Below, piece after piece: positions 7,232 through 58,547 of a DNA stretch of 64,000 nucleotides. The notes beneath the pieces were generated by a model. It was not told where the DNA came from. It worked only from the letters and a program-made list of their open reading frames with translations, and searched no databases. Position numbers and translations under genes: made by a program. Where the stretch lies: the NCBI RefSeq assembly GCF_000565195.1, contig NZ_CP006720.1, positions 930,001 through 994,000 of the forward strand. The letters run 5' to 3'. Source of the stretch: Spiroplasma mirum ATCC 29335 (GTDB lineage Bacteria > Bacillota_I > Bacilli_A > Mycoplasmatales > Mycoplasmataceae). Positions within the stretch are counted from its first letter, which is position 1, and each line of letters begins with the position of its first letter.

Positions 7232-7256
7232 CCCTTCTCAATGAAGTTAATCAAAA

Positions 7257-7285
7257 TAGATGCTAAATTATTAATTTAGCATCTA
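7257..7285. terminator. Hairpin terminator
   Basis: 13-bp perfect arms TAGATGCTAAATT / AATTTAGCATCTA with a 3-nt loop. It follows the 3' end of the pseudogene at 7331-7864 on the minus strand. Confidence 0.55.
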
Positions 7286-7330
7286 TAATTAACTACATTA
7301 ATCGGTAGCTAAAACATTATAAATTTTGTT

Positions 7331-7864
7331 TTAATCAAACAGTCCGTCAATTTCAATTCCATCAACATAATATACTTCACTTTCTTCATATCAAGATTTC
7401 CCGCTTTTTCATTCGTCATAAGTTCTTCCTTCTAAACTGATAAATAAGCCATTTGTGGCGGCAGAACTACTAAATCATTCTTTAGAATTATTAATATTTC
7501 ATTTAACAAAATCTTTAAAATAATTAGTAATGGCATTAATTCGGACTTGTTGCTTATCTCCTCACACTTAGGGATCTTTGGCATTATTTAATAATACATT
7601 TCACTCATTAATAAAATAGTTAATCTCTTCCATATCCTGCTCTTTTAATGCTCTTAAAAAATATTTAGCATCATGTCAACTAATATGTAGTTGAATATAA
7701 CTATATGATTCCTTTCAATAATTGTGTGATTCAAATTTATTTGAAACATTATCAATTGTTACTATTTCAACTTTTGAATTATTACTGTCTTGTTTAATTA
7801 GCGAAGCACTAAGAGTTGACATTCCAATGACAAAGGTATTTAAAATTACTTAAAATTTCGTCAT
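7331..7864 (-). pseudogene. Interrupted small secreted-type protein gene
   Basis: An ATG at 7862-7864 has a textbook ribosome-binding site (AGGAGGAT), but codon 5 is TAA. The same frame then runs on through a hydrophobic stretch (VILNTFVIGMSTLSAS) typical of a signal peptide. It later meets a second TAA after NNAKDP, then continues WGDKQQVRINAI to the final TAA at 7331. Many TGA codons are Trp in this frame. Two stops in an otherwise conserved frame indicate a recently inactivated gene. No family recognised. Confidence 0.6.
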
Positions 7865-7959
7865 TTTTTATCCTCCTAGTGAATAGATACCTATTCTTTA
7901 AAATATTAGCATTAAAAAAATAAAAGACAATAAAAATAATCTATAATTTAAAATTAATA

Positions 7960-30901: not shown

Positions 30902-31495
30902 TTATAAAATATTCGAATTAATATTACTAATCGGTAAAATTGCTGCTGACCAAAAGAAATTAGCATAATCATCGGGGTTTGCTTTGGCTTTCGCAATCAT
31001 ACTTTCATTCATAAATTCATTAGTTGGCAAACTTGCTTGTTTTAATTGCAATAGTTCGCCATTCGGATTGGGCATAATCTGCGCAAAACATCCCTGAACC
31101 CCAGCCTATTCATGTTTAGTATTTCCAATTGTTGTCACAGCATAAACTGCTACTGCAATTTTATTAGCCGCTGTCGTACCAAAATCATCGTTTCCCCACG
31201 GATTTAATTTTTCCATTGAATCATACTTTAGTCATTGGCTTGGTTTTGGCTGATAGGGATCGGTTGGGTTATCTTGATAACTATATTCAAAGATAAACTT
31301 CCCATCTTTTTCTGTATATACAAAACTATATTGTAAAAAATTATTTACTTTAGTAATGACAACAGGAGAAGCGGTTTTTACAAATTGGTTATTACCAGGA
31401 AAATCAAATTGTTCTTTTTGCTTACAAGCAATTAAACTAGTAGCACTAGTAGCAATAATACTTAAATTCATTAATGATAATAAAATTCTTTTCAT
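30902..31495 (-). pseudogene. Lipoprotein gene with an internal TAG
   Basis: Starts MKRILLSLMNLSIIATSATS with a lipobox ending SLIACKQ, so a lipoprotein (Cys about residue 24). The frame runs to GNTKHE, meets TAG at 31106-31108, then continues in the same frame through AGVQGCFAQIMPNPNGELL to NINSNIL and TAA 30902. A single TGG/TGA to TAG change would explain it. The truncated 129-aa form may still be exported. An in-frame ATG ten codons upstream lacks a ribosome-binding site and is not preferred. Confidence 0.6.
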
Positions 31496-31531: not shown

Positions 31532-32146
31532 CTAATTTCCGTAGTTGTTGTTGTGATAATTTTGTGTATAAATTTTTTCGTTATGTGTTTTATTTAAAAT
31601 TTCTTTTACCTTAGCTTTAATTTGTTGTTTTTGCTCTTCTTTTAAAATCAAAAGATCACTTCGCTTTCGGGCATATTCTTGTGTTGATTCCACTTGGCCC
31701 ATCGCATCAAAGATAATTCCGATTTTTCTTGTTCCATAACAAGCATGTAAGAACCACACGTGCAGAACAACTAAAGAATATAGTAATTCCGAAGCAAAAG
31801 AATTACCAATAATTTTTATAGAACAGGAAACGGTGGAAACAAAAAAAGAGTTAATAAAACCAGCATCTAAAAATCCGTACATAAAGAAAAACAGAAAACT
31901 ACTTTTCAGCAAAAAGCACCTGTAAACAAGAAAAAAAATAAGGCCAGTTAAAATAGAAAATGTTGCAAGACAAACAAAACGTCCAACAACTTTAACTAAA
32001 AAAATCAGAAACTACTAATACTAATTGTAAAGTAATTCCCAGTCGCAGTCGGTTAAATAAACCAAAAGTGGAACCAAATAATTCGGAAACAAAAATTCTT
32101 AAAATTAAAACTCCTATGGCAACTCATAAAACAATTAATATATATT
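31532..32146 (-). pseudogene. Fragment of a membrane protein gene
   Basis: Reads as a membrane protein with at least four hydrophobic helices (ILIVLWVAIGVLILRIFVSE, TFSILTGLIFFLVYRC, ELLYSLVVLHVWFLHACYG) and a basic C-terminal tail (EEQKQQIKAKVKEILNKTHN). There is one frameshift in a T7 run near 32000. No start codon exists: the frame is blocked by TAA near 32147. The layout resembles ABC-type or other multi-pass membrane proteins, but I cannot name it. Confidence 0.5.
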
Positions 32147-41952: not shown

Positions 41953-44652
41953 TTATAGTCACCGGTGGTAAATTTTGATGTAAATAAACTTTGCCAGCTG
42001 ACTCAGCAAGCAATAGGATATAATAATCATCACCAAGAACGCAAAATAAATCCCTAGTAATGGACGCATTCCCAATTCAGTTCCAATAATGGTAAAGGGA
42101 ATCACAATTCCAATTGTAATAACTGCTAAGGTGGCGACATTTAGTTGCCAAGCAGCACGCGATTGGATAAACGGAATCCGACGAGTGCGGTACATTTGCA
42201 CCACTAAGGTTTGAGTTAGCAATCCTTCAACAAATCAGCCAGTATGGAATAAACTAATTTGTTCAGGGGTTGGGTTTCCTTGTGATAAAACCCCAAAATA
42301 ATAACCCATTATTGCAAAGGTAATAATATCAAAAATTGAGGAGACTGGTCCGTTAATAAAAACAAACGGAATAATGTCTTTGGTTGTCCAAGTTTGTGGT
42401 TTTGCTAAAAAATCAGCATCTACTTTATCAAAAGCCACAGCAAATTGCGACATATCATATAATAAATTTTGAAATAGTAATTGAATTGGTGCTAAAGGCA
42501 CAAAAGGTAACCATGCCGAGGCAATTAAAACACTTAAAACATTTCCAAAATTTGATGAAATTGTAATTTTAATATATTTCAAAATATTTCCAAAGATATT
42601 ACGTCCCTGAATAATTCCTTTTTCTAAAACTAATAAAGACTTTTCTAATAAAATAATATCAGAAGCTTCTTTAGCAATATCAGTTGCATTATCAACCGAT
42701 ATTGCGACATCACTTTGACGTAACACCGGAGCATCATTGATCCCATCCCCCATAAAACCAACAGCATGGTCATTAGCTTTTAACGCATCAATAATTTTAG
42801 CTTTTTGTAAGGGGTTTAATTTTACAAAAATATTATTTCGTTCCACCACATCTCGTAATTCATACTCACTTAATTTTTCTAAATCTTCGCCATTCACTAA
42901 GCCCTTAACATTCAAATCTACCCGGTCACAAATTGCTCTTGTTACTTGCTCATTATCTCCGGTTAAGATTTTTAATTCAACCCCATTTTGTTTCAATAAT
43001 TTAATCATTTTCGCAGCAGATGGTTTTGGTTTATCTAAAAAGGAGATAAAACCTAAAAAAATTAAATCATTTTCATCACTTGTTGTATAATAATCATTTT
43101 TTTCATGTCCTCGTGAGTAAGCAACTCCAATTACTCGCAGTCCTTCGGTGTTTAAACGATTAGTTGTTGCATTAATCATTCTTAAATGATCATCACTAAG
43201 GGGTACTAATTTCCCATCATATTCAATGCGGTTACAATTTTTAACAATTTCTTCAATTGCCCCTTTACAAATTAGGGTATGGTGGTTATCTTCACCTTTG
43301 ACAACAACTGTTAATTTTCGTCGGTTAAAATCAAACGGAATTTCATCAATTTTAACATAATCATTTGTCATTAATTTTAAATTATGTTGTTCAACATATT
43401 TAATAATTGCCTTATCCATCGGATTTTTTAAACCAGTTTGATAAAGGCTATTTAAATAAACATAATTTAATAATTTTTCATCTTGCTTATTATTTAATAA
43501 TGTATAGTCAATTAACTCAATATTATCATTTGTTAGCGTCCCGGTTTTATCCGTGCATAAAACATCAATGGCCCCTAAATTTTGAATTGCTTCTAGTTTT
43601 TTAACAACAACTTTGGCCTTACTCATTTTGCTAGCCCCGCGTGCTAAATTAGAAGTAACAATCATTGGCAACATCTCAGGCGTTAATCCAACCGCCACTG
43701 AAATTGCAAATAAGAGTGCCCCAACCCAATCATTTTTGGTAACACCATTAATAACAAAAACAATTGGCACCATCACAAACATAAAACATAATAACAACCA
43801 AGTTGTTCTTTTAATTCCCTTGTTAAAACTATTTTGTGGTCTTTTTTCAGTAATTGTTTTTGAAATCGTTGCATAATAGGTATTTTCTCCAACCCCAATT
43901 ACAATAGCAATCGCACTTCCTGACACCACACTTGTTCCAGTATAACAAATATTTTGTAATTCTAATAAATTTGATTTTTCCTTATTATAACTAGCATGTT
44001 TTTCGACTGGTAGTGACTCTCCCGTTAATGAAGACTGGTTAATAAATAAATCATTACTTCAGAGAATGCGAACATCAGCGGGAACCATATCACCACTTGA
44101 TAAATAAATTAAATCTCCCTGCACTAATTCATGAATTTCTAATTCTTTGGCTTCTTTTATTAATTCAGTATTATTACTTGCGACAACTTCATCAACTTTT
44201 TCATCCTCAGTTAGTCGAATAACCGTAATGGTGTTGCTAACTAAATTAGTTAATTTTTTTGTCACTAAATAACTGCGGACTTCTTGAATATAAGATACCG
44301 TCGTACTAATAAAAATCATCACTAAGACAATAACCGTTCCGACTAGCTCAAAACTATCACCATTCATAAAAAAATAACTTAGAAAATTATACAGGGCAAT
44401 ACATCCTAGCACAATGTTAAATGGATTTAAAAATACTTTTAATAACTCTAAAAATCATTGGAACCTAACTTCTTTTAAAGTATTATCACCGTATTCTTTG
44501 GCAATTTCTTTTGCTTGGTCAAAATCTAACCCAAATTTTGAAAGATGAAAATGATCTAAAATCGCCACTTGTCCAAGTTGGGCAATTCTTTTAATTTCAT
44601 CAGTTTTAGCAAACCCAATTTCTTTTTTACCTTTTCTTTTTTTTACCTGCAT
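41953..44652 (-). CDS. mgtA: Magnesium-transporting P-type ATPase (MgtA type)
   Basis: 899 aa, matching MgtA/MgtB. Motifs: actuator SSLTGESLPVEKH, phosphorylation CTDKTGTLTND, nucleotide-binding KGAIEEIVKNC, hinge MGDGINDAPVLR, and type IIIB membrane line SVAVGLTPEMLPMIV. About ten helices. A dozen TGA codons read as Trp. AGGAGGCTA precedes the ATG (44650-44652). It imports magnesium using ATP. Preceded by a long leader with its own promoter and a short ORF. Confidence 0.94.
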
Positions 44653-44728
44653 TCATTAGCCTCCTCTTAATTTATTATTAATTAAGAACAAAATTTTGAA
44701 ACCAGGCAAATATTATTAAAATTAATTT

Positions 44729-44800
44729 TTAACTAAAATTGCTGGTTAAAATATTCATTCTGTTAACTAGATTGTTCAGTTGGCACATCTGCTCGGACAC
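44729..44800 (-). promoter_or_regulatory. Possible mgtA leader peptide, 23 aa
   Basis: In the mgtA leader a GTG start with AAAGGAG at 8 nt opens a 23-codon frame (MSEQMCQLNNLVNRMNIL and five more), closed by TAA. Near its end begins one arm (AACCAG) of a possible hairpin with CTGGTT about 30 nt on. The layout recalls leader peptides that regulate mgtA in enteric bacteria, but the sequence is unrelated. Speculative. Confidence 0.4.
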
Positions 44801-44844
44801 TTTAACCACTCCTTTTATTTTTTTAATTAATCTTATTTATTTAA

Positions 44845-44873
44845 ATAATATCGTATAACAAGCGCTAAAACAA
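44845..44873 (-). promoter_or_regulatory. mgtA promoter
   Basis: Minus strand TTGTTT (44868-44873), 17-bp spacer, TATTAT (44845-44850). The leader to the mgtA ATG is about 185 nt. Confidence 0.55.
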
Positions 44874-44879
44874 GCATAA

Positions 44880-44911
44880 CAAAAAAAAGTTAATAACTTT
44901 TAGTTATTAAC
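44880..44911 (-). terminator. Terminator of the membrane pseudogene
   Basis: 9-bp perfect arms GTTAATAAC / GTTATTAAC (44889-44897, 44903-44911) followed by T8 on the minus strand; the pseudogene stop lies within the stem. Confidence 0.75.
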
Positions 44912-45157
44912 CGGATTTACTACTGGCTCAGTTAGAACTTTCGGGTTAGCAGTTGGTAAATTTAGCATTAACTTAAATTGTTTTTTCCATAGTTTATTAT
45001 AACCAACTGAAATTCCAAAAAAAGAAAGTAAATTGCAAGATATTTAAGAAGTGAATAAACTAAAGCAACCCAAATGCTTGCTGTTACAAAGTTTAGAACA
45101 TTTCAATATGTTGTTATCCCGTTAGTTAACCACCCAAAGATTAAGCGGAGCAACATT
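44904..45157 (-). pseudogene. 3' fragment of a membrane protein gene, cut by the inverted repeat
   Basis: Reads FGMLLRLIFGWLTNGITTY and ASIWVALVYSLLKYLAIYF. It then needs a frameshift in a T7 run near 45020 to continue GYNKLWKKQFKLMLNLP to PVNN and TAA. The 5' end is missing: the frame is lost exactly where the 212-bp repeat begins. Not recognised beyond being a membrane protein. Confidence 0.5.
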
Positions 45158-45369
45158 CCAAAAATAAATTAGTTATTTATTAGTTTTTGTTAGTTTGCTA
45201 AGATATCAGGGGATGAAAAAATTCCTACCAGTTAATTTTTACCAATATTTTATAAAAGATCTTTTAAATATCTAAAATATCATTAATATATTTAAGAGAT
45301 AAGTTATAATATGAGAGTAGTATAAAAAATTGAATTAAGTGGGTGAAAAAATGAATTTATACTTATTAG
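45158..45369 (+). repeat. 212-bp inverted repeat, copy A
   Basis: Reverse complement of 49483-49694 with a single mismatch (an A/T difference about 9 bp from the left end). It carries TATAAT (45305-45310), GGGTG and the codons MNLYLL, that is, the promoter, ribosome-binding site and first codons of the YtxG-like gene. Here they are joined to unrelated sequence at 45370. Genes on both sides are truncated. Confidence 0.92.
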
Positions 45370-46315
45370 TGTGGGCGCACTATCATATACTTTAATTCTA
45401 TCTGGAATAACTCCTGATTGCAAAATATCTTTTTTAGTATAAACAATTCAAGGAACCGTCATTTCCGGAATGTTTGGTCGTCCATGATATTGAGACAGTC
45501 CTCCATGATCACTATTAATAATAAATGGTGTGTCATCATACATTTGTTTAGCTTTTAACTTATTATAATTATCCCTATTTGCTGATCAGTTTTTGTTAAT
45601 GCTTGGTAGTATTCTTCAGAATTATATTCACGAGAGTGTCCAGTATCATCAGGATCTAAAAAATACATCCATGATAAACTAGGTTTGGTGGTATCAATTT
45701 GGTGTTCTAACACATCTAAATAACGCTCAATTGAATTTTTTTTGGTATTTGTTTGATAATAATAATCAATAAAATTCTGACCATATGCTTTAAAATCAAG
45801 ACTTAAAGCAATTGACTGTACACCTAATAAAGAAACAAACGCCGTTTGAATTCTTTCGTGAGTTACTCATCATCCCGCGTCAAGATTACTTTGATGAATT
45901 AAACCAAAAATTGAAGTTTGCTTGACTAACTTTGCTTCATCAATATAAATAGAATGGTGAATATTAGTTAATGGCTGATCAACAATCCCGTGGTTTTCGG
46001 GACCTGTTACCAATAAAATTGTTGCTCAATTTCCGGCAGAAGAATTTGACAACTCACTACGCACATCTAATTTATAAGCATCATGGTCCATCATGGGCAA
46101 AGATTTGGAATGGTTGCTTTTTGCAGCGCATACGCTGCTAACCCATCATTTGCCAAAACAACGATATGTTTGGGATGATAAGTAAGTTTATTTTTCATAA
46201 GAAACATATTTAATATATTTTTGTTGATACGATGGTATCCTGCAATTGCCGCAAGTTCCAGAACAGCTATGGAAACTGCTCTGGTTAATAAAAAACTGGC
46301 ATGTAATTTTCGCAT
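45370..46315 (-). pseudogene. Truncated alkaline phosphatase / phosphodiesterase family gene
   Basis: Begins MRKLHASFLLTRAVSIAVLE at ATG 46313-46315 with a signal-anchor-like helix. Family lines: HIVVLANDGLAAYAL, NSSAGNWATILLVTGPENHG, metal-site YFLDPDDTGHSREY and NSDHGGLSQYHG. Frameshifts lie near 46105 and near 45560. The 3' end is cut off at 45369/45370, where the inverted repeat starts. Intact relatives are about 500 aa, so roughly the last third is missing. Confidence 0.7.
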
Positions 46316-46456
46316 CTTAGACCCTCATCTTCTTTCTTCTAAGTTTACTTACAAATTAGTGTATGTTAAAAATCAAGAAAATTAAAAAAAATTATCTAAA
46401 AATAGATAAATTTTTAAAATTTTTTCAATTAATTATTTGCAGCCTTTGCTAATTAA

Positions 46457-46753
46457 TTAAATATTTGCCGTAAAATCAATGATTGAATTCGCATCATTTT
46501 TAACATACAAGTTTGAAGGAAGTACTTCCACTTTAATATCTTTATTTTCTGGTAACATTCCAATAATTTTATTTTTTAAGTATTCAACTTGTGGTGTTAA
46601 TAACACAATATCATAATCATTGATGTTTAAATTATTTACTGTTACAGCTTCAAATTTTCATTCTTTGTTGTCTTGGACCAAAACATTATTAATTTTTTCA
46701 ACAATTGTTTTTGTGCTAATTCCTGCAGAACATACTAAACAAATTTTTTTCAT
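46457..46753 (-). CDS. PTS IIB protein, lactose/cellobiose type
   Basis: A 98-aa stand-alone EIIB: MKKICLVCSAGISTKTIV with the phospho-Cys in CSAGIST (about residues 8-14), then DIVLLTPQVEYLKNKI (about 50-65), the usual fold. It passes phosphate from EIIA to sugar on a matching EIIC, none of which is in this window. The IIB ATG has TGGAGGAAAAA upstream. It lies upstream of the truncated phosphatase inside the repeat-bounded segment. Confidence 0.85.
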
Positions 46754-46860
46754 TTTTTCCTCCATTGGTCATATCGAAATCTATAGGTATAAGTTATACT
46801 AATAAAATAGTAATAACGTAATAATTTCGCAGGATTATTTTAGCATAATTTTACAATAAA

Positions 46861-46869
46861 TGATATAAT
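46861..46869 (+). promoter_or_regulatory. Extended -10 promoter
   Basis: TGATATAAT (TGnTATAAT), 74 nt before the ATG of the 113-aa gene. Confidence 0.45.
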
Positions 46870-46943
46870 TATAAAAGAATTTGTCCAATTATTTTTAAGA
46901 TAGTTCGGCAAATTACATATAACTTAAATTTAGGAGGATAAGA

Positions 46944-47285
46944 ATGCTACCAGAAAAAATTGATTCTTTTATTGAGGACCATGTCGATAAACCATTGTCA
47001 GAATATATTAAAGAAAATCCAAGATTTATTCTAGAATTTATTAATACATTATCATGAGAAGAAAAATTTGAGTTAATAAATGACTATGTAGCACAAGATG
47101 ATGAAATTGAACACGCAATTAATACGATTAATAAGAAAATTTCATTATTCATTGAAGATGAAATCAAAGAACGAGTAATTCAAAACATCTCAGAAGAAGA
47201 ATACTTAAGACATAAGGCAATTGTGGAAGTATACGAAAAAGCAAAGGCTGAGTATGAACAAAATAAAAAATCAAATATCAATTAA
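46944..47285 (+). CDS. Hypothetical acidic protein, 113 aa
   Basis: MLPEKIDSFIEDHVDKPLSE, then ENPRFILEFINTLSWEEKF; highly charged, helical, with no signal or membrane segment. TAGGAGGATAAGA is a strong ribosome-binding site, and a promoter and a terminator frame it, so it is a real gene. Function unknown. One TGA is Trp. Confidence 0.75.
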
Positions 47286-47301
47286 CTAAGGTCAAATATA
47301 G

Positions 47302-47339
47302 AAAAAAAGGATTTGAATAACATTATTCAAATCCTTTTT
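47302..47339. terminator. Bidirectional terminator
   Basis: Long hairpin built on GGATTTGAATAA / TTATTCAAATCC with flanking A and T runs, between the convergent 113-aa gene and tyrS. Confidence 0.85.
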
Positions 47340-47345
47340 CTTTAT

Positions 47346-48584
47346 TTATAAGTAAATAATATGGTATTTTCGCTTACCGCGACGAATAATTAAAAATTTA
47401 TTATGTAAAAAATCTGGTGGTGATAAAACTTTGGTTTCATCATTAACAACGTGGCCATTAATAGTAATTGCATTTTTGTTCAAAAACTCACGACCTTCAC
47501 GTTTCGAACTAACAACTTCACTAGCAACTAATAAATCTAACAAATTAAGATTTGGTGATTCTAATTGGTAGTGAGGAAGACTATGTTGAATGCTTGTTAA
47601 TTCTGATAATGATAATTCATGTAAATTACCATTGAATAAAGCATCCGAAATTTTAATTGCACGGGCTAACTCATCTTTCCCGTGAACAAATAATGTTAAT
47701 TCTTCGGCTAATCTTTTTTGCCCTAATCTTTTAAACGGTTCTTTTAAATGGTCTTGTTCTAATTGCTTAATTTCTGCTTCTGATAAAAAAGTTAAGAATT
47801 TTAATAGTTTAAAAGTTTCAATGTCTTCTTGATTATAAAAGAATTGATAAAACTCATATGGCGAAGTTTTCGTTGGATCTAACCATACAGCCCCTGATTC
47901 AGTTTTTCCAAATTTAGTCCCATCAGCCTTAGTTAATAAATTCATTGTTAACCCACAAGCTAAATTATCTTCTCCCAGTTGCTTACGAATATAATCCGTT
48001 CCCGAAGTAATGTTTCCTCATTGATCACTGCCCCCGGTTTGGACTGTACAGTCATACTTTTTATATAACTGGTAAAAATCATAAGCTTGTAATAAAGTAT
48101 AAGAGAACTCGGTATATGATAACCCACTCTCAATTCGCGAAGTAATGCTTTCTTTATTTAGTAAATAACTAATATTAAATTCTTTTCCCATGTCGCGTAA
48201 AAAATCAATTAATGAAATGTTATTTAGTCATTCACCATTATTAACAATTTTGACATTCGGAATTAGTTTTTCTACTTGTTGTTTGATGCTTTCCACATTA
48301 TGCAATACTGTCGCATTATTCAACAATACCCGTTCGCCTTTCTTTCCGCTGGGGTCCCCAATCATTCCGGTTCCTCCCCCAATAATTGTAATTGATTTAA
48401 AACCACATTTAGCAAAACGTTCTAACAAAATAATTTGAATTAAATGGCCAACATGTAAAGAATCTCCCGTCGGGTCAAAACCACAATATACTCCTTTTTG
48501 TAATTCTTGTGATTTTAATAGTTTTTCTTTGTTTGTTACCTGTTTTAATAGTCCTCTTCAAGTCAATTCTTTAATAATATTCAT
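47346..48584 (-). CDS. tyrS: Tyrosyl-tRNA synthetase
   Basis: A 412-aa class I synthetase. HIGH-like motif [16 protein letters not shown] (about residues 35-50), tyrosine-binding [12 protein letters not shown] and GGSDQWGNITSG (about 190-201), and the KMSKS equivalent KFGKTESG (about 231-238). The C-terminal S4-like domain ends [21 protein letters not shown] is Trp at four or more positions, including LTWRGLL near the N-terminus. No T-box leader is visible. Confidence 0.96.
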
Positions 48585-48638
48585 TGTAAATTCCTTTCTA
48601 TTAATCATCTTATTGAAAAAACTCTAAGTAAATAGAGT

Positions 48639-49145
48639 TTATTTTTTATTTTGATTCGATATTTTTTTAGTGGGTTTTGGGTATCCTTCTTCAATGATTT
48701 TTTCTGAAATTGAAGCAGAGGTTTTTTTCAAATCATCACTAACCTTGATTCCAGCGTAAATGGCAGAGACAGTAATTTTTGCTAAATCTTTGGCTACTGC
48801 CCGAACATTCGGAGATTTTGCGGCTGCTTTGATTAGTTTGACGGCACCTTGATCAAGTTTTTTCAGTGCTTTATAAGCCATCTCTTTGGTTGAAGCAGAA
48901 TCTAAAATATCAACTGCCCCCTTAACATTTTTAATTTTAACTTCAATATTAGTGGCAATTTCATCAGACTCAATTCCTTGTGATTTCTCCCAAACAATTT
49001 CAATTTTATTAACCATATCTTTTAACTGCGGATTATATTTTTTAACCATTTTAACAAAATCAGCGCGTAATTCAGAACCTTTTTTAGGGGCAATTAACAT
49101 TCCAACAACCATAATTGCTACTGTTTTTAATAATTTAAAAGCCAT
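48639..49145 (-). CDS. YtxH-like protein
   Basis: A 168-aa protein with a hydrophobic N-terminus and the YtxH line VVGMLIAPKKGSELRADFV (about residues 13-31), then a long charged, probably coiled-coil region. YtxH proteins are small membrane-associated stress proteins of unknown function in Bacillus. It begins two bases after the stop of the preceding YtxG-like gene, so the two are a unit as in Bacillus. Confidence 0.75.
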   Translation of the reverse strand: MAFKLLKTVAIMVVGMLIAPKKGSELRADFVKMVKKYNPQLKDMVNKIEIVWEKSQGIESDEIATNIEVKIKNVKGAVDILDSASTKEMAYKALKKLDQGAVKLIKAAAKSPNVRAVAKDLAKITVSAIYAGIKVSDDLKKTSASISEKIIEEGYPKPTKKISNQNKK

Positions 49146-49147
49146 AA

Positions 49148-49501
49148 TTAATCATCCTCAGAATTAGCAAAATCTTTTAGTTTGTCAACTAATCGATAAG
49201 CAACGTCCTTATTTCTTGAAATAACTTTAATTCAAGCTTTAACATTTCGTTTCGTAAATGCTTCAAAAACATCAACATAGTTTGATATTTTTACCACCGT
49301 ATCAACTGTTGAGTTTAGCATTTCTGATTTATATGTTAAGTCCTCAATAAAATAATCAAATTTTTTCGCCGCAATCGCAACTTTTCGCGCCGCAATAATT
49401 CCATATAAACAAAAAATAATTGCTAAACATAATAAAATAATAATTAAAATTGTTTCTGAGATTAAAAGATTATTGTCACTAGCTAATAAGTATAAATTCA
49501 T
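49148..49501 (-). CDS. YtxG/DUF948-like membrane protein
   Basis: 117 aa with one N-terminal helix (ETILIIILLCLAIIFCLYGII, about residues 17-36) and a charged cytoplasmic part (KKFDYFIEDLTYKSEMLN). Similar in layout to YtxG/DUF948. The start is ATG 49499-49501, six nt after GGGTG; an in-frame GTG upstream is part of that site. Its promoter, ribosome-binding site and first six codons are in copy B of the inverted repeat. Confidence 0.65.
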
Positions 49502-49694
49502 TTTTTCACCCACTTAATTCAATTTTTTATACTACTCTCATATTATAACTTATCTCTTAAATATATTAATGATATTTTAGATATTTAAAAGATCTTTTAT
49601 AAAATATTGGTAAAAATTAACTGGTAGGAATTTTTTCATCCCCTGATATCTTAGCAAACTAACAAAAACTAATAAATAACTAATTAATTTTTGG
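49483..49694 (-). repeat. 212-bp inverted repeat, copy B
   Basis: Matches copy A (45158-45369) in opposite orientation, 211 of 212 bases. It covers the gap between the 147-aa gene and the YtxG-like gene plus that gene's first codons. The flanking genes here are intact, so this is probably the parent copy. TATAAT is at 49542-49547 on the minus strand. Confidence 0.92.
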
Positions 49695-49711
49695 GCTAAA
49701 ATTAAATATTT

Positions 49712-50155
49712 TTAATATTTAATTTGATAAGATTCCATTTTATTATAATATTTTTTACTAAATTTTAATTTTAATAATTTACCTTTTTTCACTAAAAAAT
49801 CATTTTTAATTGTAACTCCCAATGAAGTAAGCCCCCTTTTTAAAGAATGGTTTTTAAAATTATTGATTAAATTAGCAAAAGAATAATTTTCTTGCAAACC
49901 AATCATAATTATTGCTTGAAAGTCAGAAAAACCTAACACTAATTCATCAAAATTAAGATCATAAAGCTCAACAGTTGGGGATTTAGTTGCTCTCGCTAAA
50001 AAATCGGTCAGTAATAATTGATGATTGCAGAAATTAATCGTAGAAGTTAATTCCGTTAATGACGGATGACTTGCTAGTAACCTTGAAAATAAATTATCTT
50101 CTAAATTAAAAATGTCATCTTTGATTAAAGAATCTGGTTGCTTATTTGTCTTCAT
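49712..50155 (-). CDS. Hypothetical protein, 147 aa
   Basis: Begins MKTNKQPDSLIKDDIFNLED; helical, mixed charge, with a basic C-terminus (KLLKLKFSKKYYNKMESYQ) and no membrane segment. It overlaps the 3' end of the upstream 338-aa gene by 14 bp, so the two are translated together and may work together. Family not recognised. Confidence 0.7.
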   Translation of the reverse strand: MKTNKQPDSLIKDDIFNLEDNLFSRLLASHPSLTELTSTINFCNHQLLLTDFLARATKSPTVELYDLNFDELVLGFSDFQAIIMIGLQENYSFANLINNFKNHSLKRGLTSLGVTIKNDFLVKKGKLLKLKFSKKYYNKMESYQIKY

Positions 50156-51158
50156 TATTATTTAATTCATTTTTAATTCGTTCACGACGACTTTCATCTG
50201 CTTCTTTAAGATTTTCTTCTTCAAGATTTAATTTCCTCATATAATAAGGATTCCGACTCGTGTAAAAATCAACAACTTGTTTTTTGGCTGAATTATCCTT
50301 AACATTTTTTAAATTCTCCATCATTTGTTGATGTTCCGAAGAGCCTTGAATAATTGGTTTTGGTCTTCGGAGAAATTGACGGTCAAGATTATTTTCTTTT
50401 AATTCACGAGCAATTTTATAACGCGTTGAACCCGCCGCAATTGAATTATGCATGATTTGTTTTTTCCGATCAAGTAACGACATGTCAGTTGGAAAATCAG
50501 TATTGATTTGATAAGTCTTACGAATAATATTGTGGAATTTACTATTAACCTCTTTTTGTTTTTCAATTCCTTCAAACATTGTTGTTTGTTCATAAATATC
50601 ATATAAATTTTTACGCGGATCAGTTTTTTTAATTTTTTCTTTCAATTGTTCTAACTCTACTGTTAATTCTTCGGTACGATCACCAAAAATATTCTCACCA
50701 TTTTTACGTGGCTTGAATAAAAAGGATTGGGTTTTTTCAGCTTGCTCAGATAATTTCTCTGGCTTTTTAACCATCGATTTAATTATTTGCTCATCTTGTT
50801 GCAGGTCATATTTTTTATAAATTGGTTGATAAGTTTTTGTTGTTGGTGTTGGTTTTTCTTCAACTCCATTATCCCCAATTTTTTGTTTAATTTCTGCTTC
50901 CACTATTTTGGCAATCGGAGAAGTATCATCACTAGTATAATTAATTATTGTTTGATAATGGGCAGAATTAAGATCTTTTCCAAATAATGGTGAAATTACT
51001 TCTGTTAATTTTGAAACTTGTTTTTCAGAACTTGCTGGTGGTACAGCGTCTGCTGGTTGTTTTTTTTCAGAAGTATTTTGTTTTGAATTATTATTTTCAA
51101 AAAAAGTGCCTTGGTGATTATAATAAGACGGGATTTTTTGATTATCTTTACTATTCAT
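50142..51158 (-). CDS. Hypothetical protein, 338 aa, largely disordered
   Basis: MNSKDNQKIPSYYNHQGTFF at the start; low-complexity Asn/Ser/Lys/Pro sequence for 130 residues, then charged helices (RTEELTVELEQLKEKIKK, about 160-177) and a conserved-looking block SIAAGSTRYKIARELKE (about 237-253). The C-terminus is rich in Glu and Lys. No signal or membrane segment. Family not recognised. GGAGGAGAATTAG lies before the ATG. Confidence 0.7.
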   Translation of the reverse strand: MNSKDNQKIPSYYNHQGTFFENNNSKQNTSEKKQPADAVPPASSEKQVSKLTEVISPLFGKDLNSAHYQTIINYTSDDTSPIAKIVEAEIKQKIGDNGVEEKPTPTTKTYQPIYKKYDLQQDEQIIKSMVKKPEKLSEQAEKTQSFLFKPRKNGENIFGDRTEELTVELEQLKEKIKKTDPRKNLYDIYEQTTMFEGIEKQKEVNSKFHNIIRKTYQINTDFPTDMSLLDRKKQIMHNSIAAGSTRYKIARELKENNLDRQFLRRPKPIIQGSSEHQQMMENLKNVKDNSAKKQVVDFYTSRNPYYMRKLNLEEENLKEADESRRERIKNELNNNEDK

Positions 51159-51212
51159 AACTAATTCTCCTCCAAATATATCTTAATTATACCTAAATTA
51201 TTTGTTGTTAAC

Positions 51213-52235
51213 TTATTTTTTTTGTAATCGGGTTGACTCGATATTATGGCGTCCATATTTTGCCTGGGGTTGACCGTTTATTAAGACCGCATCACCAGTA
51301 AAACCAATTGTTAACTTTGCTAAACTTTGGCCAACCCCATAAAAATCAACGGGAATATTTTCTTTTTCAAAATCTTCAATAATTTTTGCCGTAAAACCAG
51401 AAGAAACAATAATCTTGACATTTGTAAAATAATGGCGATCTAGTTCTTGACGCAAGGCTTTGATCAAATGTTTATTAACCCCATGAATATCTTCACCTTT
51501 AAACTCCGCTTCTTTTCCAATAAAATACTTATCAACTAAGGCTTTTGAAGTGTCAATGCGAACGGCAAATAAATCAGGAAATTCCTTAGCAATTTTTAAA
51601 GTATCATTAATAACATCATTATTATAATCAACCAAAGCAACTAATTTTTCCGTTGGAAAATGTTTTTTGTAGGCATGTAAAGCAGCAATTAAATCACCAT
51701 TAAATGCTTGGATTAATGCATGGGGAACAGTTCCAATTGGTTCCGCATTAGGATTAACTTTTGCTAACTGCGCTTGTGTTACAAAATTGCTAATCCCACC
51801 CACATTAGCAGCATAACCATCATTTTCCTGCGTATAATAATAATCATTACGATCATTCATATAAATAATTGGCTTATTATTAGCAACTTGGATTAAACGA
51901 TAACAATTAGTTGCAATACTTGTTTGACGAGCAAGAATTCCATCAATAATACCTTCTAAATAACCAAATTGATAATAATGACCGGTAATTTTTAGAACTG
52001 GCTCAAAAGCATTAATAAGATCACCATCTGTTAAAGCATAAATTTCCAAACTTGCTGGATCAATCGCTTCTGCTTTAATTAATTTGACACATTCATTAAC
52101 CCCTGCTAATTTAACATTATTTTCTCTTTGAAAAAATTGGATGGTAATTATATCGTCTGGCCGTTCATTTTTTAAAATGGCGGCTGTTTTTAAAAAATAA
52201 ATAGCACTATAGTAACCTTCTTTTATTTTACTCAT
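51213..52235 (-). CDS. pncB: Nicotinate phosphoribosyltransferase
   Basis: A 340-aa enzyme making nicotinate mononucleotide from nicotinate and PRPP, the first step of NAD salvage. Lines GGISNFVTQAQLAK, IGTVPHALIQAFNGD with the His of the active site (about residue 180), LVALVDYNNDVIND, VRIDTSK, and VKIIVSSGFTAKII with FYGVGQSLAK. I start at ATG 52233-52235 (MSKIKEGYYSAIYFLKT), with AAAGGAC upstream. It lies just downstream of the ytpR-like gene. Confidence 0.9.
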   Translation of the reverse strand: MSKIKEGYYSAIYFLKTAAILKNERPDDIITIQFFQRENNVKLAGVNECVKLIKAEAIDPASLEIYALTDGDLINAFEPVLKITGHYYQFGYLEGIIDGILARQTSIATNCYRLIQVANNKPIIYMNDRNDYYYTQENDGYAANVGGISNFVTQAQLAKVNPNAEPIGTVPHALIQAFNGDLIAALHAYKKHFPTEKLVALVDYNNDVINDTLKIAKEFPDLFAVRIDTSKALVDKYFIGKEAEFKGEDIHGVNKHLIKALRQELDRHYFTNVKIIVSSGFTAKIIEDFEKENIPVDFYGVGQSLAKLTIGFTGDAVLINGQPQAKYGRHNIESTRLQKK

Positions 52236-52251
52236 CTTTATAGTAGTCCTT

Positions 52252-52854
52252 TCAAAAGCTATCTCCAATTTTATATTTATTATCCGTTAACACCATAATA
52301 ACTTTCCCCGCTTGGGTAATTGGTAAACCAAGTTCTTGTTCGGAACAAATCATTCCATCGGATTTTTTACCCCGTAATTCTGAAGGAATAATTTGTAATA
52401 AGTTTGGCATTCGTGCACCAATATTAGCAACAACAACTCTTTGCTGATGATTAATATTAGTAGCTCCACAAATTATTTGTCGTTGTTCATCACCAAGATT
52501 AACTTCGCAAATATTTAACTTATCTGAATTTGGGTGTTTTTTAACAGTTAATACTTCTCCCACTATAAATTGGGTTGTTAAATTAATATTTGCCAAATTA
52601 TAGCCATACTGTTGAAATAAAGTAATTATTTCCGCAATTAAATCTTTATTGTCACTATTAATGCCACTAGTTAACTTATTTTTAAGCATTGTTTTGGCAT
52701 TTAAAATATTAAAACCAACTAGTTGTTGTTTATCATTACGGAAGAAAACTAAGTTATCTTGGATTATCCGTTCGGGATTATTAACAACTTGTAAGTAACC
52801 AAATAATGTATCAAAATTTTCATTATAAAATAAACCAACTGTATTATTTTTCAT
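52252..52854 (-). CDS. ytpR: tRNA-binding-domain protein (YtpR type)
   Basis: A 200-aa protein whose C-terminal half is the EMAP II/PheT-type domain: IVGEVLTVKKHPNSDKLNICEVN (about residues 105-127, in parts IVGEVLTVKKHPNSD and KLNICEVN), then IICGATNINHQQRVVVA and ELRGKKSDGMICSEQELGL. It is separate from PheT, as YtpR is in Bacillus. ATG 52852-52854 overlaps the upstream aminopeptidase by 11 bp. Exact role unknown. Confidence 0.88.
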   Translation of the reverse strand: MKNNTVGLFYNENFDTLFGYLQVVNNPERIIQDNLVFFRNDKQQLVGFNILNAKTMLKNKLTSGINSDNKDLIAEIITLFQQYGYNLANINLTTQFIVGEVLTVKKHPNSDKLNICEVNLGDEQRQIICGATNINHQQRVVVANIGARMPNLLQIIPSELRGKKSDGMICSEQELGLPITQAGKVIMVLTDNKYKIGDSF

Positions 52855-53950
52855 CTTTTTTCTCCTTACTAGTAAAATTAAACTGACAGATTTTTTCATG
52901 ATTTAAATCCTTAATGATAGTAGTCACTAATTTAATTGTTTCATTAAAATCATCTAAATCAATCACCCCACCAGTAGTGTGCAGGTTGCGAGCAATCAAA
53001 CAAGCCTGAATGGTAGGTACTCCATAATCATGTAAATGCACAGCTCCAGCGTCTGTTCCACCTGACGAAATATAAAACTGATTTTTAATATTATATTTTT
53101 TCATTAAAGCAATTTGGTATTGAATCAAATCATATCTTGTAATATATTCGCGGTCCATTCCTCTTAAAATTACACCATTCCCAAGTTGACCAAATTCACT
53201 ATTTGAATAATAATCTTGGCCGGGAGACACATCAGTAACAATTGCAAAATCAGGTTTAATTAAATTAGTTGCTGTAACAGCACCTCGGGTTCCAACTTCT
53301 TCTTGAACACTAAAACCAATATATAAATCAAAGTCTAATGCTAAATCTTTAATGTTTTCTAAAACTTCTAATCCTAAAATAACTCCCATCCGGTTATCAA
53401 TGGCTTTTGATAATAATCGCTTTCCATTTAATAAGACTGTCTCTCCTTCGCAAATTAAAAAATTACCCAAACGGATTCCATTAGCATAAGCATCTGCTTC
53501 AGAAGTAAATCCAAAATCAACTAGCATCGTATCAATTTGAGCTGGTTTATTACGAGCTTCTGGTGATAATAAGTGCGGTGAAATCGCTGAAATTGTTCCT
53601 TTAATAAAAGTCCCATCATCTTTTAAGAGTTTCACGCGATTTGCTAATAAAGTTTGTTCTCAAATTCCACCCAGGGGATTTATTTTAACTAAACCCTTAG
53701 GATTAATTTGGCGGACCATAAAACCAACTTCATCACCATGGGCCATCAGCATTACTTTTTGAGGGTTAACAATATTTTTTTTATTTCTAATAACAGCAAA
53801 GCAACTACCTAAATTATCTTGAATAATTTCATTAGTATATTGCTGATAATATTTCTTCATTAGTTCAATAACCCGAAATTCACAGCCACTTGGTCCAAAC
53901 TCTTGCAAAATTGCTTCATACATTTTAAATTTTTCTGGATTAATTTTCAT
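52844..53950 (-). CDS. M42-family aminopeptidase (glutamyl aminopeptidase/endoglucanase M type)
   Basis: A 368-aa di-metal peptidase. Metal ligands and catalytic residues in order: His and Asp of VMLMAHGDEVGF (about residue 71), Asp of SKAIDNRMGV (about 180), Glu-Glu of SVQEEVGTRGA (about 210), Asp of VTDVSPG (about 233) and His of ARNLHTTGG near the C-terminus. Trims peptides in the cytoplasm. One TGA Trp (GGIWEQ). First gene of the peptidase-ytpR-pncB run. Confidence 0.92.
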
Positions 53951-54057
53951 AATAACACCTTCTTGTTCTTGAAAATATTATATCAAAGTTTATAATTAAT
54001 TTATTGTTAACAAATTAACAATTTTATTAAATTTGTAGAATTAAACGAGGGATAAAT

Positions 54058-54900
54058 ATGAAAAAAGTAGCAATAATAGTTGACTCCTCATCAGGAATCA
54101 AAAGAAAAGACTTAGAAAAATATGATGACATGTATTGAATGCCATTACTATTAACCTTCCCCGATGGTAGTGAAGTTGATGACGATGATGAAATTATTTC
54201 ATTCGACGAATTTTATGATATTTTGGATCAGCAAGTTATTAAGACAAGCCAAATCCCAATGGGAAAAATAATTAACAAGTGAGATGAACTGTTAAAAACT
54301 TACGAAAAAATTGTTTTTGTTGGTTTATCAAAAGGTTTATCTGGTCAACATGAAAATATTTATATGCTTTCACAGCAAGATAAATATAAAGATCGTGTTT
54401 TTGTTATCGATACTGATGGTGTTAGCGAAGTATTAAAACATATGATTGACCATATTTATCAGTGTTTAAACGAAGGAGTGGTTCCTGAAGAAATACAAGC
54501 AAAAGTTGATGAATTAAAAAAACAATTTTCTGCTTTTATTATTTCAAAAAGTTTAGAAACTTTAAAACGTGGCGGAAGGATTACCCCTGCCGCGGCCGCT
54601 CTTGCTTCGCTTTTAAAGATCACACCGATTTTAAGATATGATGGAAAAATTGATAAATTTGAAAAAACAAGAACTTTTAAAAAAGCAATTGAATTAACAT
54701 TACATCAAATTAAGAAAGAACGTACAAATTGAAAAGAAATTATTTTAATTCATTCAAAAACAGATGAAGAAGCATTAAATGATGTTAAAAAAATCATTAC
54801 TGACTATGGTTGTGAAATTAAAAAAACAGTAATTTTAGCCAATGTCATAGCAGCCCATACCGGACCTAATACTGTTGTCCTAGTATGTTGAGAAAAATAA
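54058..54900 (+). CDS. DegV family protein (fatty-acid-binding fold), first copy
   Basis: A 280-aa protein: N-terminal AIIVDSSSGIKRKDL (about residues 5-19), KTSQIPMGKI (about 63-72), SLETLKRGGRITPAAAALASLL (about 162-183), all DegV landmarks. DegV proteins of the FakB group bind fatty acids for FakA kinase; whether this one does is inference. GAGGGATAAAT precedes the ATG. The second degV starts 12 bp downstream. Confidence 0.9.
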
Positions 54901-54912
54901 GAGGTGAAAAAA

Positions 54913-55773
54913 ATGAGCAAAAAAATTGCAATCTTAACTGATTCATCAGCAGGATTTACAGAGGAAGAAATTAAAAAATATCAAATTCATGTTTTACCAC
55001 TACACATTATTTTAAATGGTGAAACAGATATTTTAGATAATGAACAAGAAGTTGCAGCTAATAATTTCTATGAAGTTGTTAGAACTGGCATTACCAAAAC
55101 TAGTCAAGCATCAACCGGGGAAGTTATTAATATGTATCAAGAATTACTAAAAACGCATGATGAAATAATTCATTATCCAATTGCTGAAAAATTATCTAGT
55201 CAATATTCAACAGCTTATATGATTGCTCAAGATGACGAATTTAAGAAAAAAGTTACTGTTGTTCGTAACCATACAGCAGCTTATTCTTTAAAACAACTAA
55301 TAATTTTAGCAAAAGATTTGGCTGATAAAGGAATGGATAGCAAAGATATCATTGCCGAAACAACAAAATTTGAAAACTCAACCTTAATGACAATGATTCC
55401 TGGTAGTCTTGATCGTTTATCAAGCGGGGGAAGAGTTAAAAAAGTTTTACTTTCCTTAATTAATTTATTAAAAATTAAAATCTTATTACAATGAGGAGAA
55501 AACCCCAAAAAAGTTGCCTCATCCCGAACAATAAACTCATTAGTAGAGAGCTTTATTGATCTATTAAAAAACTTTACTAAAAAAGTTAAGTTAAAATATG
55601 AATTATTTGTTTTAAAAACTTCAGAATGTTCAGCAAAAGTTTGAGATGCAATTGTTGGTGTTCTAAATAAACATAAAATTAATTATCATGTTGAAAAATT
55701 ACCAAATGTATTTGTTGCTCATGCGGGATTAGATACAGTTGCTTTTGTAACAATTCCGAAACTTGATAAATAA
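54913..55773 (+). CDS. DegV family protein, second copy
   Basis: 286 aa, tandem to the first: KIAILTDSSAGFTEEEI (about residues 4-20), KTSQASTGEVINMYQ (about 66-80) and SLDRLSSGGRVKKVLLSL (about 166-183). Start ATG 54913-54915 with GAGGTG seven nt upstream; an earlier GTG overlaps that site. The two copies differ strongly, so the duplication is old, as in other mollicutes where paired FakB-like proteins bind different fatty acids. Confidence 0.9.
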
Positions 55774-55776
55774 AAT

Positions 55777-55805
55777 AAAAATCCATTCTTAATAAAATGG
55801 ATTTT
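55777..55805. terminator. Bidirectional terminator
   Basis: 10-bp arms AAAATCCATT / AATGGATTTT with an 8-nt loop. It ends the degV pair on the plus strand and the tRNA cluster on the minus strand. Confidence 0.8.
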
Positions 55806-55832
55806 CTTTTTTTGATGTAAAACTTAAAAATA

Positions 55833-55925
55833 TGGCGGAAGTAAAGAGATTCGAACTCTTGCGTGACTTTCATCACCTAACGGTTTTCGAGACCGGCCCC
55901 TTCAACCAGACTTGGGTATACTTCC
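55833..55925 (-). tRNA. tRNA-Ser (anticodon CGA)
   Basis: 93 nt including an encoded CCA. Acceptor GGAAGTA / TACTTCC, anticodon loop CTCGAAA giving CGA, long variable arm typical of tRNA-Ser, and T-loop TTCGAAT. Reads UCG. Confidence 0.92.
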
Positions 55926-55943
55926 TTATTTTTTATTTTGTTA

Positions 55944-56018
55944 TGGCAGGGGTGACAGGACTTGAACCCACAGCATACGGTTTTGGAGACCGTTGTTCTA
56001 CCATTGAACTACACCCCT
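55944..56018 (-). tRNA. tRNA-Trp (anticodon CCA)
   Basis: 75 nt with encoded CCA. Acceptor AGGGGTG / CACCCCT, anticodon loop CTCCAAA giving CCA, reading UGG. Nearly identical to the neighbour outside the anticodon arm. Confidence 0.95.
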
Positions 56019-56102
56019 AGTTTCTTTAAAATAATAACATAAAAAAAATAAAATCTTGGGTAAAAATAAAAAAGTATTTTTTAAAATACTACTTTTAAAA
56101 TA

Positions 56103-56177
56103 TGGCAGGGGTGACAGGACTTGAACCCACAACACTCGGATTTGAAGTCCGATGTTCTACCATTGAACTACACCCCT
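56103..56177 (-). tRNA. tRNA-Trp (anticodon UCA), reads UGA
   Basis: 75 nt with encoded CCA. Anticodon loop CTTCAAA gives UCA, which decodes UGA (and UGG) as Trp. It shares acceptor, D and T arms with tRNA-Trp(CCA) 85 bp away; only the anticodon arm and a few nearby bases differ, which marks a tandem duplication. This gene is the basis of the altered code used throughout the window. Confidence 0.97.
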
Positions 56178-56283
56178 AATTTTATTGTGCTAAATTAACA
56201 CTTATTTATTTTAACAAATAAATTCTTAAAATTAAATAATTAAATCTTAAATTTATATTTTTTAAAGCACAAAAAATCTGAAA

Positions 56284-56760
56284 CTAATCTAAATCATCAT
56301 CAAAATGAGTATGTTCCGTACGGTTTAACCGTTGACATTCTTCACACAAACCATGTCCTTCAATTTTAAAATGAATTGGTTTTCAGTAAATTTTTTCTAA
56401 AGCTTTCCCTAAACTAACAATATCAATTGATTTTAAAACTGCTTCATCTTTAATATGAAGAACTTTCTTACATGAGTCACAAATGGCATGAAACGAAGGA
56501 TTCTCAGCGAGGTCATATCAAATTTGTTTACCATCAAAAGTATTGCTAAAAAGTATATGTTCTTTTAAGAGCATATCAATAGTATTGTATACTGACATTA
56601 AATTGACATTTTGGTATTCTTTTTCTAAATATTCAACAATTACGGACAAAGTTAAGTGTTTTTTATCAGTTAAAATTTTAATAATTGATAAGCGAATATC
56701 CGTTAACCGATAGTTTTTATCTTTTAAAATTTGAACAATCTTATCGTACGATAAAGCCAT
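56284..56760 (-). CDS. fur: Fur-family metal-dependent regulator (Fur/PerR)
   Basis: 158 aa. Winged-helix part YRLTDIRLSIIKILTDKKHLTL, in two parts YRLTDIRLSIIKI and LTDKKHLTL (about residues 17-38), with SVYNTIDMLLK (about 56-66). Metal-binding C-terminal half HAICDSCKKVLHI and GHGLCEECQRL give two CxxC pairs for structural zinc. Ends in an acidic tail HTHFDDDLD. Which of Fur, PerR or Zur applies cannot be told. It follows acpP by 9 bp. Confidence 0.85.
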
Positions 56761-56769
56761 AAAAATTCC

Positions 56770-56994
56770 TTATTTCTTTAAATTATCAATAATTTTAACT
56801 AAGTCATTTAATGTTTTAATTTCTGTTAACTTATCATCTGGAATGCGAATTGATAATTTTTCTTCAGCTAAAATAACCAAATCCATTAAATCTAATGAAT
56901 CAAGACCAAGATCTTTAAAATTAGTATTCAAATCAACTGTTTTACTAATCCCCCTTTGTTTTAAAACTTTCTTTAGTTCTTCCATAATATTCAT
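56770..56994 (-). CDS. acpP: Acyl carrier protein
   Basis: A 74-aa helical acidic protein. The phosphopantetheine Ser is in LGLDSLDLMDLVILAEE (Ser about residue 33). Carries acyl chains for phospholipid synthesis. ATG 56992-56994 has GAGGTGATA upstream. Downstream, fur appears co-transcribed. Confidence 0.95.
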   Translation of the reverse strand: MNIMEELKKVLKQRGISKTVDLNTNFKDLGLDSLDLMDLVILAEEKLSIRIPDDKLTEIKTLNDLVKIIDNLKK

Positions 56995-57098
56995 AATGCA
57001 ATATCACCTCTATTTATTACTATATTTATAATTATAACAAATAAAATTAAAAATAAATCTTTTCCACTTTTTTAAATGAAATCTTAAATTTTAATACG

Positions 57099-57586
57099 CT
57101 AAGAATTAATTATTATGTTAGCTAACGTATAATGAATAATTGTATTTACTTTTGATAACCCATAATATTCATTACTGCAATCAAAAACGAGATAACTATC
57201 TTCATTATTAATAGTTGGAAAGACATTAATTCACTGCGCTAAAAATATTTTTTTAACGCGCAAGTTTAAAAAAATAGTCATTATGTTGGAAAGTAAAAGC
57301 ATTATTAAATTGGTAACTAGCTAAAGCCAGTTCATAAGAATAATCATTTGTTGGGTGGGGGTTGGTGTTGCTTAATAATAAGATTTTGGTAAATTAAAAC
57401 TCCGAGACAAGTTAGAAAAGCTAAAATAACAATAATAAAAAAACTGACAATAATTTGGCGCTTAAATTTTCATTGTTTAAACTTGGTAACACTTTTCTTG
57501 TCATAAGTAACTTCCATTTGCTTATTATCTTTTGCCTTTAAAAAGGATTTAATTTTGGAAATAAAATTCTTAAACAAAGTTAGCAT
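57099..57586 (-). pseudogene. Frameshifted membrane-anchored hypothetical gene
   Basis: Starts MLTLFKNFISKIKSFLKAKD, with a single helix QIIVSFFIIVILAFLTCLGV (about residues 47-66). It then needs a shift near 57370 (C-run) to continue NDYSYELALASYQFNNAF, and another near 57250 to read WINVFPTINNEDSYLVFD to TAG 57099. Not recognised. It overlaps the stop of the small membrane ORF upstream by 4 bp. Confidence 0.5.
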
Positions 57587-57741
57587 TGCTCGTCATCAAA
57601 AGGCTGATTATAATAATAAGAAAGTTGATTATTATTAATTAAAAATATAGTTGCCTGGGGATTAATAAAATTATTAAAAAAGATTTTTTCTGATATAGCA
57701 TATACTAATAGTAACCAAGTTATGAAAATTATGATTATCAA
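57583..57741 (-). CDS. Possible small membrane protein, 52 aa
   Basis: An open frame from TTG 57739-57741: LIIIIFITWLLLVYAISEK, then FINPQATIFLINNNQLSYY, ending DDEQC. One hydrophobic N-terminal helix. Overlaps the next gene by ATGCTAA-type coupling. Start uncertain, no clear ribosome-binding site; the neighbours are broken, so it may be a fragment. Confidence 0.35.
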
Positions 57742-57751
57742 AAACTATTTT

Positions 57752-58547
57752 TTAATTAATAATAATTCCTGATGTTGGAATAACCGTTTGCAAAACTAAT
57801 TCCTCGTGGGCCAGAAAGGGATCTATTAATAATCTATTATTAGTCAACATATTATCTGTGATTTCAACTCGCTGTTTTTGGAAATTATACATAGTAGTAT
57901 TATTACTAAAATAGTGGTAAAAATGCCGATCATGATATTTTAAATAACCGTTTATTTTATCAAAATTATATTTGGTAGTACTGCTTAAAATATAAGTTGT
58001 AACTGGTAAAGTTAAATTTGGGTTTGGCAATTTGGTGCGAAGTTTATTAATCTTTGTAATAATATCATTAGGATATTTTTTGTAATCTTCTAAATTATAG
58101 TTAAAATTATTATCAAAGTAAAACAGACTGGGAAGACTAGGATTATTAATTTTATTTATTATAATAAGTAAAAACTAGTTCATTTTTTAGTAAACTTTTT
58201 TGATAATCAAATTGCTGATTATTTTCGTTAAAATTCTTATATTCAAAAAGAGCATTAATTACAAGATTAGGAGCATCAACCGGCTGAGGGGCGAGATTTC
58301 AATAAATTTCTTGGTATGAATTTTTGGCAACTAACGCATTATTATCATTATAATCTAAGCTAACGACAACTGCGATTTGGTTTAAATTATCATTATTTAA
58401 GCAAGTTGTTGGAATACCCTCTTTTGCTCAATTACCATAACTTAAATAGTGATTTTTAGTAGCTAATAAAGTTTCAGAACTAGTTGCTAAAAATTCACGG
58501 GAATTTTCAACATATAATGAATCTGTAAATAAATTAGTGCCCAACAT
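57752..58547 (-). pseudogene. Frameshifted hypothetical gene, about 264 codons
   Basis: Starts MLGTNLFTDSLYVENSREF at ATG 58545-58547 with AGGGAGG upstream. It runs to NELVFTYYNK, where TAA stops it near 58155; a one-base shift restores NPSLPSLFYFDNNFNYN and LPVTTYILSSTTKYNFD to GIIIN and TAA 57752. Soluble, Asn/Tyr rich, no signal peptide. Not recognised. It heads a run of three small genes, two of them broken. Confidence 0.6.

Follow-up and report, generated by a model that had tools for sequence, protein, structure and literature searches.

A near-perfect inverted repeat in Spiroplasma mirum, best read as a deletion scar filled with an inverted copy of a nearby upstream region

Inverted repeats that flank a gene segment and carry a promoter are known from invertible switches such as Vpma in Mycoplasma agalactiae (PMC2268961) and PsrA-mediated inversion (PMC7096588). 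In models of template switching and microhomology-mediated break-induced replication (MMBIR), joints at microhomology are followed by nearby, sometimes inverted, sequence, and a deletion arises if the end returns ahead of the point of collapse, in recombination-deficient cells (Hastings, 2009, PMC2621351; PMC3161906). Within the Mirum clade of Spiroplasma, Lo et al. (2015, PMC4607517) report that the sister species S. atrichopogonis has lost the repair genes recO, recR, recU and ruvB. The recA gene is said to remain complete in S. mirum (PMC9666726).

The locus described here lies in a 64-kb window of S. mirum (the whole stretch of DNA that was analysed), read with genetic code 4. Two arms, 45158-45369 and 49483-49694, each of 212 nt, match as reverse complements at 211/212 positions and are separated by a spacer of 4,113 nt; their identity ends abruptly on both sides, and a chance origin of the match is excluded. 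The sole mismatch sets 45166 (A) against 49686 (T on the reverse complement). Each arm holds the hexamers TTAATA-16-TATAAT (45283-45310 on the plus strand and 49569-49542 on the minus strand), a ribosome-binding-like GGGTG stretch and the codons ATG AAT TTA TAC TTA TTA (MNLYLL), with the promoter-like hexamers and MNLYLL of both arms facing inward, toward the 4.1-kb segment. An earlier sequence-only reading had described a near-perfect 212-bp inverted repeat with one mismatch, an inward-facing TATAAT promoter, ribosome-binding site and MNLYLL in both copies, and a truncated phosphatase; these features are all present in the sequence, the promoter and ribosome-binding site as promoter-like and ribosome-binding-like stretches. 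The phosphatase further differs by four single-base indels from that of G003, the nearest relative compared (about 93% identical, and the only close relative in the comparison). The features of the locus are listed below.

44900-45170, minus strand: 3' remnant of an ORF for a membrane protein, about 400 codons long in G003; the 5' part is deleted here
45158-45369, plus strand: left arm, read as an inverted extra copy in a deletion scar; absent from G003, which has 1,031 bp there instead
45158-45166, 45167-45170 and 45171-45369: parts of the left arm, read as old flank, ambiguous junction (AATT) and copied tract
45158-45170, plus strand: left-junction microhomology CCAAAAATAAATT, 12/13 with the donor CCAAAAATTAATT
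45283-45310, plus strand: orphan ytxG promoter-like hexamers TTAATA-16-TATAAT, a consensus match only
45351-45395, plus strand: dead 14-codon ORF (MNLYLLVWAHYHIL, then a stop) formed from the left copy and its right junction
45369-45370, unstranded: right junction, where the arm ends in TTATTAG and the phosphatase resumes with TGTGGGCGCAC
45370-46315, minus strand: truncated type I phosphodiesterase/nucleotide pyrophosphatase pseudogene, its 3' end deleted and with the four indels
46457-46765, minus strand: PTS lactose/cellobiose-type IIB gene (PF02302)
46944-47285, plus strand: conserved 113-codon hypothetical gene
47346-48608, minus strand: tyrS, tyrosyl-tRNA synthetase (PF00579, PF22421)
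48639-49145, minus strand: ytxH-like gene (PF12732, E 2e-8, below the curated cut-off)
49148-49501, minus strand: ytxG-like gene, starting inside the right arm
49483-49694, minus strand: right arm, read as the native donor, comprising the ytxG-like upstream region/promoter and first codons; single copy at the same place in G003

The name ytxG-like is taken from the sequence-only reading and from the position of the gene beside ytxH; Pfam gives no match for it. A contig scan with the ytxG protein returned five loci, all in other Spiroplasma records and none in S. mirum or its nearest kin. The only RNA families found in the window are four tRNAs; the tRNA genes at 55942-56023 and 56101-56182 are 90% identical to each other, lie about 160 bp apart and occur also in G003.

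The genome of G003 is collinear with the window over 42304-45170 and 45370-58498. It carries only the right copy, upstream of and extending into the ytxG-like gene, and the right arm is 97.6% identical to this single copy. At the site of the left arm, the 1,031 bp of G003 consist of the 5' part of the membrane-protein ORF and the 3' end of the phosphodiesterase gene, and both ORFs are open in G003 and cut at the ends of the left arm in S. mirum. Two open genes could not plausibly be regained from two truncated ones, which makes the G003 arrangement the ancestral state by sequence comparison and the change in S. mirum a deletion with inverted filler. This comparison supports the right arm as the donor and the left arm as the filler within a deletion of about 1 kb. 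Among 60 family genomes, the two arms together were found only in S. mirum, whose closed genome of 1,132,608 bp holds these two copies and none further; the 58 genomes other than S. mirum and G003 gave no arm match at E <= 1e-20. A mobile element or dispersed repeat was rejected on these counts, and no plasmid match was found. A shared regulatory element elsewhere was also rejected: other spiroplasmas give only weak matches to the arm, which are short and either A+T-rich or promoter-like, and those examined adjoin unrelated genes.

The junctions place the limits of the copied sequence. Base 45166 is A, as in the old left flank of G003; the donor base is T in both genomes. The left junction was set at 45167-45170 because 45166 bears the flank allele and not the donor allele. 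The first nine bases of the apparent repeat are thus old flank, resembling the donor through the chance likeness of CCAAAAATAAATT and CCAAAAATTAATT. Within this microhomology, four bases are exact at the junction itself; among 13-mers of the window paired at random, a 12/13 match is expected at a frequency of about 2e-5. The copied tract is 199-203 bp long and 100% identical to the donor. No microhomology is visible at the right junction, as judged against the proxy of about 93% identity that G003 provides.

The left arm is very probably a templated insertion at a deletion junction, produced by one accident of repair or replication. The inserted sequence copies a nearby locus that was left in place at 49483-49694 and is present in G003, and it is coupled to the loss of 1,031 bp at the target relative to G003. 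In this scheme, a 3' end lying within the membrane-protein gene, where the left flank ends in CCAAAAATAAATT, would anneal to its 12/13 counterpart CCAAAAATTAATT, which lies upstream of ytxG on the other strand at a distance of about 4.5 kb. Copying would then proceed for about 200 nt, across the ytxG promoter and the first six codons of the gene, before the end rejoined its original region within the phosphatase gene, 1,031 bp ahead of where it had left. The net result is about 1 kb lost, about 200 bp gained in inverted orientation, two genes truncated and one orphan promoter. The product suggests RecA-independent template switching, either fork switching or MMBIR, as the route; it does not itself reveal which way the copying ran or which enzymes took part, and recA, now a pseudogene, may have broken before or after the event.

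Several genes of recombination and repair, all outside the window, bear on this route. The recA gene of S. mirum (about 843290-844003 in the genome) is a pseudogene with an open frame, in which the Walker A stretch has been shifted out of frame, 81 bp have been deleted and the original 3' end has been lost or replaced. Its description as complete (PMC9666726) disagrees with this sequence and probably reflects the frame staying open across the damage. The ruvB gene is split into short frames (about 456315-456749 in the genome); both genes are intact in G003, in which ruvB is a 328-codon ORF. No match to PF00589 (Phage_integrase) or PF00239 (Resolvase) was found in the S. mirum genome, with positive controls. 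The broken recA and ruvB and the lack of a recombinase match argue against inversion or gene conversion and fit RecA-independent template switching.

The age of the duplication was estimated with 9.4% as the neutral rate, 50-69% of change assigned to the S. mirum lineage and gene conversion assumed absent; the 69% share was borrowed from branch lengths given for the sister species by Lo et al. (PMC4607517). The left and right arms differ at 0/199 positions and share all four of their differences from G003. Divergence from G003 is 9.4% in the phosphatase remnant and 1.9% in the right arm, and most neighbouring sequence differs by 6-13%. If the duplication were as old as the split from G003, 11-16 arm differences would be expected and none is observed, which fits an upper bound for its age of 19-26% of the time since that split, a rough figure resting on one close relative. 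The true neutral rate may exceed 9.4%, and the bound may be tighter, since 57/313 third codon positions of the phosphatase differ from G003. By codon position, the changes in the remnant number 20, 12 and 57; their concentration at third positions indicates that selection acted on the phosphatase over much of the divergence and that the gene became inactive fairly recently. This inactivation could have been caused by the deletion of about 1 kb or could have preceded it.

The sequence-only reading had proposed that recombination between the arms would invert the segment, and two near-identical inverted copies of about 200 bp, 4.1 kb apart, are indeed a possible substrate for an inversion device, whether constantly or only occasionally at work, that relies on homologous or site-specific recombination, with ytxG retaining a promoter in either orientation. 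The order and orientation ATPase gene, IIB gene, 113-codon gene, tyrS, ytxH, ytxG and 338-codon gene are nevertheless the same in G003 and in the more distant G001 and G013, all three without the left arm (G013 has a longer gap after the ATPase gene and is otherwise equal). No alternative orientation was found among S. mirum (G000), G003, G001 and G013, and the sequence comparison indicates that no net inversion of the 4.1-kb segment occurred. As the ytxG promoter would be identical either way, flipping would not switch ytxG expression. With recA and ruvB as pseudogenes and neither recombinase family matched, an inversion device is highly improbable, and the proposed inversion is not supported. 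The same reading had offered a recent duplication or ongoing gene conversion as the source of the arm identity. The duplication is upheld by the absence of the left arm from the nearest relative and by the 100% identity of the copied tract; conversion is not needed. An older duplication held identical by conversion would explain 0/199 arm differences amid neighbouring sequence that differs from G003 by 6-13%, but a recent duplication accounts for the same value. A gene-converting pair also needs working homologous recombination, for which recA and ruvB are broken here, and the mismatch at 45166, which falls beyond the copied tract, gives no sign of incomplete conversion. This older origin is therefore considered very unlikely.

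An equal final structure could have been reached in two steps, by a break or deletion of about 1 kb followed by end-joining capture of a separate 200-bp fragment, and the right junction without microhomology is in its favour. Conversely, the 12/13 microhomology on the left suggests that copying was primed by annealing, a single event is simpler, and Ku gave no match in 14 genomes of the genus, a search in which only 1/14 controls carries Ku; the two-step course is distinctly unlikely. Inverted chimeras are known to occur in amplified libraries, and the left arm might in principle be such an artefact of library or assembly. This would, however, require two junctions and a 1-kb loss in a closed genome, together with a left junction that bears the allele of the old flank. 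At 1,132,608 bp, the genome is also within 17 bp of the length of a published S. mirum assembly (1,132,591 bp; PMC9666726), which is perhaps not independent. An artefact is thus exceedingly improbable, and templated insertion at a deletion junction is the preferred reading.

Besides the left-arm scar, five structural differences separate the window from G003: four deletions and one insertion of about 1 kb. Deletions of 69 bp and 282 bp lie between direct repeats of 15-18 bp (window 30971-30985 and 58481-58498), as expected of RecA-independent slippage. At the deletions of about 8 kb and 149 bp, the diverged flank spans only 16-17 bp and no filler can be recognised; apart from the scar, the window has four deletions larger than 50 bp, all of them without filler. 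The roughly 8 kb of G003 is missing at window 31753-31770. At window 6883-7934, about 1.05 kb is absent from that place in G003, and short minus-strand frames lie inside it. A 147-codon ORF adjoining ytxG (window 49712-50155) differs from G003 at 13% of its bases and by small indels, an unusually strong divergence. The inverted filler is a single event in the window, and no habit is demonstrated by it. That loss of RecA and RuvB shifted repair in the S. mirum lineage to template switching, with deletions patched by inverted copies of nearby sequence recurring in genome erosion and this scar as one example, is considered unlikely.

Upstream of ytxG, eight aligned Spiroplasma genomes all have the core ATAAGTTATAAT without any change, which makes it reasonable to read the hexamers of the right arm as the ytxG promoter. 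The left copy faces antisense into the phosphatase remnant, and transcription from this orphan promoter is possible; its MNLYLL start runs into the 14-codon ORF listed above. By default, the product of the rearrangement is probably neutral. The scar is best read as a known, ordinary kind of mutation that is well resolved, and not as a switch. It provides a clean, recent and fully resolved natural deletion with inverted-copy filler in a bacterium with broken recA, and illustrates that near-perfect inverted repeats can form by other means and need not be switches. Should scars of this type prove common in mollicutes deficient in recombination, the share of template switching in genome reduction would be measurable.

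Compared with invertible switches such as Vpma and the PsrA-mediated inversion (PMC2268961; PMC7096588), the S. mirum locus likewise has inverted repeats that flank a gene segment and hold a promoter-like sequence; unlike them, it has no recombinase match in its genome and no alternative orientation in the relatives compared, and its repeat is a deletion filler. The closer likeness is to templated insertions by MMBIR or long-distance template switching (Hastings, 2009, PMC2621351; E. coli lac, PMC3161906), in which microhomology at a junction, inverted copying of nearby DNA and deletion on return are also seen and are compatible with RecA independence. The S. mirum case differs in being a fixed evolutionary change in a mollicute and in having a right junction without visible microhomology. 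The many small deletions and pseudogenes of genome erosion in the Mirum clade, as the available text of Lo et al. (2015, PMC4607517) describes them, are shared by this locus; that study concerns a genome-wide pattern, whereas here one deletion with inverted filler is resolved.
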